DNA from: an uncultured Phascolarctobacterium sp.
Lineage (GTDB): Bacteria; Bacillota; Negativicutes; Acidaminococcales; Acidaminococcaceae
DNA: 64,000 nucleotides
Direction of reading: 5' to 3'
Assembly (NCBI GenBank): GCA_949288065.1
Contig: CASEIL010000016.1
Span: 1-64,000, forward strand
Positions within the stretch are counted from its first letter, which is position 1; each line of letters begins with the position of its first letter. The notes beneath the pieces are model-generated. The model searched no databases. It worked only from the letters and a program-made list of their open reading frames with translations, and was not told the DNA's origin. This document shows, piece after piece, positions 24,806 through 61,231 of the stretch. The position numbers and the translations under genes are program-made.

Positions 24806-24834
24806 TTGTCTTAAAGATGAAAGTCTGTTACAAT
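24806..24834 (+). promoter_or_regulatory. Locus A sense promoter
   Basis: TTGTCT (24806-24811), 17-bp spacer, TACAAT (24829-24834). A start a few bases later begins the RNA with the 43-nt stretch (24833-24875) that is identical in locus B. Confidence 0.75.
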
Positions 24835-24840
24835 AAACAG

Positions 24841-24952
24841 GCAAATGTGCTGCCATAACGGTAGGCGGTTAGCCCCTCTGCGGAGGGACTGTGACCCTCC
24901 GATGAAATAGAAATCCGGCATAAGCCGGAAATACTATGAAGGAGGGGATAGC
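24841..24952 (+). other. Structured leader of locus A peptide
   Basis: From 5' to 3' the leader holds: CTGCC-ATAAC-GGTAG hairpin; CCCTC (from 24874) pairing with GAGGG (24882-24886); a single-stranded ACCCTCC (24894-24900) complementary to the ribosome site GGAGGG(G) at 24941-24947; and a CCGGC-ATAA-GCCGG hairpin (24915-24928). Locus B keeps the same order with changed but still paired bases. The leader probably hides the ribosome site until refolded. Confidence 0.6.
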
Positions 24953-25054
24953 GTGGATATTTTAGCATTGTTAATAACCTTCACTGGTTATACAATAGCT
25001 GTATTTTCCCTGGGCTATACCCTTGGGAAAGATATTGCCCGCAAAAACAGATAA
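24953..25054 (+). CDS. Small single-membrane-helix peptide, candidate type I toxin (locus A)
   Basis: GTG 24953 opens a 33-residue frame with AAGGAGGGG at the right distance. The peptide is one hydrophobic helix (about residues 4-25) ending in a charged, basic tail (GKDIARKNR). It shares GYTI-x-VF-x-x-GYT-x-GKDI with the 31-residue peptide at 61007. Size and layout resemble holin-like or Fst/BsrG type I toxins. The ATG at 24936 is in another frame and gives only nine codons. The convergent RNA promoter at 25157-25184 supports an RNA-controlled gene. Activity is not shown by sequence. Confidence 0.72.
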   Translation: MDILALLITFTGYTIAVFSLGYTLGKDIARKNR

Positions 25055-25150
25055 CAACCGCCAGAGCCTTGGAAACTTAGCGGTTGTTACTGTGTAATAA
25101 CTTTATTAGTTTTGTGGGCTGACCGTCTATCGGCAGCCTTTTGCGTTTCT
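25040..25150 (-). ncRNA. Predicted convergent antisense RNA of locus A
   Basis: A minus-strand promoter (next entry) would start an RNA near 25150 that ends at the shared stem, about 110 nt. Its 5' part folds into GGCUGCCG-AUAGA-CGG-U-CAGCC. Its 3' half is complementary to the 3' end of the peptide mRNA including the loop 25062-25079. Locus B keeps both parts. Predicted only; no expression data. Confidence 0.6.
25052..25089. terminator. Shared (bidirectional) terminator stem of locus A
   Basis: TAACAACCGC (25052-25061) pairs perfectly with GCGGTTGTTA (25080-25089) around an 18-nt loop. On the minus strand a T-rich stretch (complement of 25042-25050) follows, so it should stop the antisense RNA. 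On the plus strand the T-run is poor. Confidence 0.65.
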
Positions 25151-25156
25151 ATAATT

Positions 25157-25184
25157 ATTATAGCAAACGTGGGGCAAAAGTCAA
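25157..25184 (-). promoter_or_regulatory. Locus A antisense promoter
   Basis: On the minus strand TTGACT (25184-25179), 16-bp spacer, TATAAT (25162-25157). The identical arrangement stands in locus B (61231-61204). Confidence 0.75.
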
Positions 25185-32242: not shown

Positions 32243-32302
32243 AACTGCAAAGGTGCCGCATGGGACAGCCAGGCCTGTGCGGCACAAAATGTATTTGCAG
32301 TT
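32243..32302 (+). other. Leader hairpin just before the glmS ribozyme cleavage site
   Basis: AACTGCAAA (32243-32251) pairs with TTTGCAGTT (32294-32302), and inside it GTGCCGCA (32253-32260) with TGCGGCAC (32278-32285), all perfect. The stem ends about four bases before the predicted cleavage point. Confidence 0.75.
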
Positions 32303-32305
32303 TCA

Positions 32306-32445
32306 AGCGCAAGTGCCGCCAAGCGGCAGACGAGGCGGAGGTTTATCGAATAGTCAGCGGGTGCCTCCCGGCCGGCTGCGGGCCGAAAGCAGAATGACAA
32401 AACCCCATGGCAACGCGGGGGACAAAACATCTGCGGCAGAACTGG
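32306..32445 (+). promoter_or_regulatory. glmS ribozyme (glucosamine-6-phosphate riboswitch)
   Basis: The leader contains the glmS ribozyme core in order: A|GCGC at 32306-32310 (self-cleavage between A32306 and G32307), a P2-like stem TGCCGCC-AA-GCGGCA (32314-32328), GACGAGGCGGAGGTTTATCGA (32329-32349), AGCGGGTGCCTCC whose GCCTCC pairs back to GGAGG, a GC-rich P3 (CGGCCGGCTGCGGGCCG), and a 3' domain with CCCC/GGGG stem and ACAAAAC. In the family, glucosamine-6-phosphate acts as cofactor and cleavage leads to mRNA decay, giving feedback on GlmS. Confidence 0.93.
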
Positions 32446-60862: not shown

Positions 60863-60891
60863 TTTACGGATTTATATTTTTGTGTTATCAT
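60863..60891 (+). promoter_or_regulatory. Locus B sense promoter
   Basis: TTTACG (60863-60868), 17 bp, TATCAT (60886-60891). Weaker than in locus A, in the same position relative to the 43-nt identical stretch (60890-60932). Confidence 0.6.
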
Positions 60892-60897
60892 AAACAG

Positions 60898-61006
60898 GCA
60901 AATGTGCTGCCATAACGGTAGGCGGTTAGCCCTCCCTTTGGAGGACTATGTGAAAACCCTCCAAAAGTAAAACGGTATACACCGGAATACAGAAAGGAGG
61001 GGTAGT
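60898..61006 (+). other. Structured leader of locus B peptide
   Basis: The order is as in locus A: the identical 5' block; CCCTCC (60930-60935) against GGAGG (60940-60944); ACCCTCC (60957-60963) against the ribosome site GGAGGGG (60997-61002 region); and CGGT-ATAC-ACCG (60973-60984) in place of CCGGC-ATAA-GCCGG. Paired positions changed together between the two loci. Confidence 0.6.
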
Positions 61007-61102
61007 ATGGACGTTATTGATTTTTTAACCGTATTTGGTTATACAATAACAGTTTTTGCCATTGGTTATACTATTGGCAAGGATATATCCAGAAAAAAGT
61101 AA
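61007..61102 (+). CDS. Small single-membrane-helix peptide, candidate type I toxin (locus B)
   Basis: ATG 61007 opens 31 codons after AAAGGAGGGG. The peptide has one hydrophobic helix (about residues 3-23) and the basic tail GKDISRKK. It shares GYTI-x-VF-x-x-GYT-x-GKDI with locus A, although the DNA of the coding part has diverged much more than the leader. It is followed by the same stem and the same opposite promoter. Holin-like or Fst-type membrane toxin is the best guess; a signalling or regulatory peptide cannot be excluded. Confidence 0.72.
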   Translation: MDVIDFLTVFGYTITVFAIGYTIGKDISRKK

Positions 61103-61197
61103 CAACCGCCGTAGCTTCGCAAACTTAGCGGTTGTTACCTTTTGATAATGACTTATAATTTGCGGCTAACCGTCTATCGGCAGCCATTTGCATTTCT
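61090..61197 (-). ncRNA. Predicted convergent antisense RNA of locus B
   Basis: It starts near 61197 from the minus-strand promoter and ends at the shared stem with a six-T run, about 105-110 nt. Its 5' hairpin GGCUGCCG-AUAGA-CGG-U-UAGCC keeps the loop of locus A with a paired change (G-C to G-U). Predicted only. Confidence 0.62.
61099..61138. terminator. Shared (bidirectional) terminator stem of locus B
   Basis: GTAACAACCGC (61099-61109) with GCGGTTGTTAC (61128-61138), 11 perfect pairs. Plus strand: CTTTTTG follows. Minus strand: a run of six T (complement of 61093-61098) follows directly, a strong terminator for the antisense RNA. Confidence 0.75.
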
Positions 61198-61203
61198 ATA
61201 ACT

Positions 61204-61231
61204 ATTATAACAAACCCAGCCAAAAAGTCAA
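61204..61231 (-). promoter_or_regulatory. Locus B antisense promoter
   Basis: Minus strand TTGACT (61231-61226), 16-bp spacer, TATAAT (61209-61204), same boxes and spacing as locus A. Confidence 0.78.

Follow-up and report, generated by a model that had tools for sequence, protein, structure and literature searches.

A candidate type I toxin-antitoxin module with complementary mRNA ends in Phascolarctobacterium

Introduction

Does locus A, a short locus in a 64,000-nucleotide stretch of DNA from an uncultured Phascolarctobacterium sp. (referred to here as the window), encode a type I toxin-antitoxin system, and if so, does it belong to a known family? A sequence-only reading of the window had put forward such a system, in which the mRNA of a one-helix peptide is opposed by a convergent RNA. 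From the parts of the locus, their conservation, selection on the reading frame and covarying RNA pairings, all of which can be read from the sequences compared here, we conclude that locus A is very probably a type I toxin-antitoxin module; its relatives keep the selected frame, both promoters, the antisense terminator and the overlap of the two RNAs at their 3′ ends. In a literature search that lay mostly outside subscription journals we found no report of a type I system from Phascolarctobacterium or from other Negativicutes, and a description under another name is possible.

Results

Organization of locus A

The promoters, leader, ribosome site, open reading frame (ORF) and stem attributed to locus A are all found in the sequence at the expected positions (Table 1), and the antisense promoter is the top promoter match within the 10 kb scanned. 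The layout is far beyond chance, because the predicted mRNA and antisense RNA have folding z-scores of −8.3 and −5.7 respectively against dinucleotide shuffles, there are eight copies in the genome, and about 85 loci overall. The stem at the stop codon had been proposed as a terminator on both strands, and only half of this proposal survives: the stem is perfect over 10 bp, but a U tract follows it on the − strand only (ATCTGTTTTTG), so it is best taken as the likely terminator of the antisense RNA. For the sense RNA, the second hairpin and its TTTT are a more probable end than the stop-codon stem.

Table 1. Positions in the window of the features of locus A and of its second copy, locus B.
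Feature	Position	Strand	Basis or remark
Sense promoter TTGTCT-17-TACAAT	24806-24834	+	Sequence, promoter scan
Structured 5′ leader of peptide mRNA	24841-24952	+	Best-conserved part of family; leader covariance model
5′ arm of end-closing pairing: GCTGCC, loop, GGTAGGCGGTTAGCCCC	24849-24876	+	Complementary to 25116-25138, covaries
Leader segment 1, CCCCTC	24873-24878	+	Alternative pairing partner
Leader segment 2, CGGAGGG	24881-24887	+	Alternative pairing partner
Leader segment 3, CCCTCCG	24895-24901	+	Alternative pairing partner
Shine-Dalgarno GGAGGGG (segment 4)	24941-24947	+	Pairs with segment 3 in predicted full-length fold
GTG ORF, 33 aa, putative toxin peptide, VDILALLITFTGYTIAVFSLGYTLGKDIARKNR	24953-25054	+	Hydrophobic helix, basic tail
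Stop-codon stem (25052-25061/25080-25089)	25052-25089	both	Sequence, folding
3′ hairpin (25116-25138) and TTTT; 3′ arm of end-closing pairing	25116-25142	+	Folding, complementarity
Predicted antisense RNA (putative antitoxin), ~110 nt	25042-25150	−	Promoter and terminator
Antisense promoter TTGACT-16-TATAAT, TG ahead of second hexamer	25184-25157	−	11/12 consensus
Locus B, second copy	60863-61231	+	DNA search, leader model
Locus B promoter	60863-60891	+	Sequence
Locus B ORF (MDVIDFLTVFGYTITVFAIGYTIGKDISRKK)	61007-61102	+	Sequence
Locus B 3′ hairpin	61164-61185	+	Sequence
Locus B antisense promoter	61231-61204	−	Sequence

Genomic copies and their spread in the genus

A DNA search, on which the copy count rests, returned eight full copies and one fragment from the genome to which the window belongs; in an alignment none of the eight lacks either promoter, the leader, the ORF or either of the two stems. 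Locus B, which had been named as a related second locus, was confirmed as such. The five congeners searched have 4–11 matches apiece, fragments counted, and exact leader matches among named genome records all come from uncultured Phascolarctobacterium. Locus A is absent from the orthologous site in congener G001, where both flanking genes are present, and was not found downstream of efp in G002–G004. At the site of locus B, congener G002 has a copy and G004 a 5′-truncated remnant, and there is no copy in G001, G003 or G005. This pattern of presence and absence at the orthologous sites of both loci indicates that copies are gained and lost over time. The G001 site between efp and the next gene, which lacks locus A, holds another inverted-repeat element (L150; CAGGAAACCACTGTTTA ... 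TAAACAGTGGTTTCCTG). The window also contains a glmS ribozyme at 32295-32444 (+), scoring 78 bits.

The peptide reading frame

An ORF of 23–38 codons with a Shine-Dalgarno-like site, ending just 5′ of the CCGCC of the stem, is present at 85 loci, a set biased toward fitting loci by a search that demanded this stem anchor. Nearly all of the encoded peptides have a single hydrophobic stretch and a basic tail, and their sequences vary widely, from the genus type GYTxGKD to MSNYETLSIVLMILAIVVTLLIALIENKK, MNYVTYSDLIQIGILIVSFLVLLQGKKK and MEIVEHIDTILEWISKILVIAVTIRNFHKEK. Among 32 distinct copies from the genus pS is 0.524 and pN is 0.249 (pN/pS 0.47), and diversity at the first, second and third codon positions is 0.365, 0.119 and 0.448 respectively; together these values argue that the frame is under purifying selection. 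The last 15 nt of the ORF are 58% A, against 25% in the ORF body. Since the A's of the tail codons are the U tract on the − strand, the basic tail and the antisense terminator would seem to be encoded by the same bases.

The sequence-only reading had named relatives that keep the RNA and lose the peptide frame as evidence that would count against it. We found one clear case, L097 (G222:C25:46333-46392), in which the leader, stem and 3′ hairpin are kept and the ORF is deleted, whereas 85 loci retain the frame. L097 lies ~1.3 kb from a selenocysteine tRNA.

The leader and the closed ends of the mRNA

The leader (GCUGCC...GGUAGGCGGUUAGCC) and the 3′ end of the mRNA (GGCUGACCGUC...GGCAGC) are complementary in sequence. 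At 40 divergent loci the predicted leader:3′ end duplex averages −44.2 kcal/mol for cognate pairs versus −36.1 kcal/mol (sd 0.57) for permuted ones, and none of 100,000 permutations, which ignore the kinship of the loci, was as good; a smaller set of loci was also tested for this complementarity. Most positions of the outer helix vary on both sides (at one there are 25 G-C and 25 A-U pairs), although these compensatory counts use pairs taken from the predicted duplexes and so weigh less than the permutation test. Two outer-helix positions keep a G·U pair in 50 and 40 of 57 loci respectively, which suits pairing between RNA segments rather than DNA ends. At L098, L102 and L128 the outer helix is very different (for example GCTATCACAC versus GTGTATAGC) and is still largely complementary to the 3′ end.

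Within the leader, the pairings of segments 1 and 2 (0/20,000), 2 and 3 (0/20,000), and 3 and the ribosome site (94/20,000) all outperform permuted combinations, with small effects. These pairings are mutually incompatible, and this suggests that the segments act as a switch that alternately masks and frees the ribosome site. In AapA it is the 3′ end that covers the ribosome site, which becomes accessible on trimming (PMC6733600), and by analogy with AapA and hok we expected activation by 3′ trimming here. The calculation shows no such effect: the mean unpaired probability of the ribosome site at 74 loci is 0.31 at full length and 0.27 without the 3′ end. End-closing might instead serve in protection against nucleases or in timing during transcription.

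Promoters and the antisense RNA

The sense promoter is conserved at 73 loci (mean score 9.75 versus 7.21 for shuffled sequences), and 97% of these loci retain the antisense promoter (10.76 versus 7.21), the −10 box of which lies mostly 14–22 nt from the 3′ hairpin. The likely terminator of the antisense RNA forms a folded domain at every locus (mean −22 kcal/mol). An RNA of ~110 nt from the opposite strand that overlaps only the 3′ end of the mRNA, as proposed earlier, is thus predicted from a conserved promoter and terminator, and in the eight genome copies the predicted overlap is ~91–107 nt. Pairing of antisense RNA and mRNA in these copies is far better for cognate than for non-cognate combinations (−198 versus −104 kcal/mol), with the exception of one nearly identical pair, and the modules are therefore probably largely independent of one another. 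Being complementary to the mRNA 3′ end, the antisense RNA has a 5′ part that is similar to the leader, and it is predicted that antisense RNA and leader can occupy the same site at the mRNA 3′ end.

Distribution across the phylum

Two covariance models built on the leader were used for searches, R1 and the broader R2; R2 matches the window at 24843-24905 (E 4e-19), locus A being among the sequences from which it was built. A covariance-model search of Negativicutes genomes had been suggested earlier as a check, and R1 matches 65 of 300 such genomes. Among 398 genomes of the phylum R1 matches 12 and R2 matches 20, and inspection by eye identified, among the 20, ten genomes outside the class that carry the complete arrangement or the greater part of it (G367, G439, G468, G501, G514, G539, G615, G625, G646 and G655). 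Four R2 matches (L171, L173, L174 and L176) and one R1 match (L108) look like chance hits in coding DNA. A few viral contigs carry loci; L142, L143, L145 and L146, on contigs classed as viral, keep the scaffold and encode a dissimilar peptide (MEIVEHIDTILEWISKILVIAVTIRNFHKEK). Plasmid records queried with locus A and phage records queried with its relative L107 gave no matches.

Relation to known families

No Rfam 15 family matches the locus at its gathering score, and ranking by E-value revealed none near its threshold; a MicC-like match (29 bits, where 90 are needed) arises by chance from the efp terminator. Scans of the peptides with Pfam and NCBIfam gave no accepted match, and no match to the Fst or Ldr profiles. 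Matches to Proton_antipo_N of 14–21 bits are below the cut-off and most likely reflect a single hydrophobic helix.

The best-surviving alternative is that locus A is a diverged member of the holin-like toxin family Hol_Tox (PF16935), a kinship that the sequence-only reading had thought possible. The layouts are alike, Hol_Tox loci with matching 5′ and 3′ ends are present in the genome and class, and some distant relatives of locus A encode peptides that score 10–16 bits. However, locus A and its close relatives have no Hol_Tox match, the best relative (16.1 bits) falls short of the 23.3-bit cut-off, and 12 Hol_Tox loci searched with the leader model gave no convincing match (12 bits at best). 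We also found no series of loci that connects, above threshold, the leader and peptide of the locus A family with those of Hol_Tox, and we consider membership unlikely. Genuine Hol_Tox loci sit separately in the window's own genome. The mRNA ends of Hol_Tox loci are likewise complementary (cognate −43.2, non-cognate −27.4), as at L061, L062, L065 and L071 (in G001, G000, G003 and G021 respectively), so that the Hol_Tox loci of the class and locus A have this design in common but differ in sequence; complementary mRNA ends may be a general design of holin-like toxins.

Among the closest characterized systems are TxpA/RatA and BsrG/SR4 of Bacillus subtilis (PMC6562991). These, the Hol_Tox loci and locus A are all chromosomal, encode a short one-helix peptide and have a convergent antisense RNA, predicted in locus A, that overlaps at the 3′ ends only, whereas locus A stands apart in a peptide that scores below the Hol_Tox cut-off, in a leader RNA not detected in Hol_Tox loci of the class and in an ORF of only ~30 aa. 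AapA/IsoA of Helicobacter pylori is, like the locus A family, chromosomal and multi-copy, with leader hairpins that mask the ribosome site and an mRNA closed by long-distance 5′-3′ pairing, a feature conserved in the locus A family. The Fst RNA I/RNA II system (par, Enterococcus pAD1) shares with locus A the convergent layout and a short membrane peptide. Fst RNA I/RNA II works through direct repeats (PMC4147584), whereas the main leader/3′ end repeat of locus A is inverted. A six-base repeat (GCGGTT) is present in both the leader and the 3′ stem of locus A, by which the antisense RNA may also touch the leader, and antisense:leader pairing is only slightly better than shuffled (−18.4 versus −16.5). 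By these comparisons the locus A family appears to resemble known type I systems in how it works and to be filed under none of them.

Discussion

The best reading of locus A is a module that works like TxpA/RatA or BsrG/SR4, with its ends closed as in AapA/IsoA and with an RNA scaffold of its own. For its transcription, degradation route, toxicity and neutralization we infer the following course. The + strand would give a peptide mRNA of ~300 nt, poorly translated when free since the leader segment CCCUCC would mask its ribosome site and the leader would pair with the 3′ end. The − strand would give the ~110-nt RNA, which would start just past the mRNA 3′ end and reach back into the last codons, pairing with the mRNA over ~105 nt to form a duplex most likely destined for RNase III; antisense pairing leads to RNase III cleavage in TxpA/RatA (PMC6562991). 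Should the antisense RNA be lost or exhausted, the one-helix peptide would be made and would harm the cell's own membrane. Because the 5′ part of the antitoxin copies the leader, the two may compete for the mRNA 3′ end, a use of one site for which the literature searched offered no counterpart. The strong covariation makes the function of end-closing directly testable.

A non-toxic small membrane protein, its level set by the antisense RNA, would leave much the same traces, and the sequence itself proves no toxicity. Single-helix peptides of such a length are not toxic in every case. The wide variation of the peptide while the RNA scaffold stays constant, the many paralogues and the presence and absence at orthologous sites nevertheless fit a toxin module better, and we regard a harmless peptide as improbable. 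A MITE-like dispersed, non-autonomous element, with inverted repeats for transposition and an incidental ORF, would account for the ~25 bp 5′/3′ inverted repeat, the many copies and the empty orthologous site but is extremely improbable, given that conservation extends beyond the repeat to both promoters, that the ORF is under purifying selection, and that the retained G·U pairs fit RNA and not DNA ends.

Taking locus A as a type I module, the wider proposition, which we judge evenly balanced, is that it belongs to a phylum-wide family defined by its RNA, in which a constant scaffold of alternative-pairing leader, closed mRNA ends and convergent antitoxin would carry exchangeable membrane peptides with no detectable mutual relation. 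The RNA family is absent from Rfam 15 and could provide a handle for recognizing many unannotated ORFs of 23–38 codons in Negativicutes and in other members of the phylum. Outside the class, G615 has nine leader matches and encodes the peptide MTYELYGAIIATLTLVVAVIALVRKK at L168 and L185, which are possibly a bridge to loci of the Hol_Tox type.
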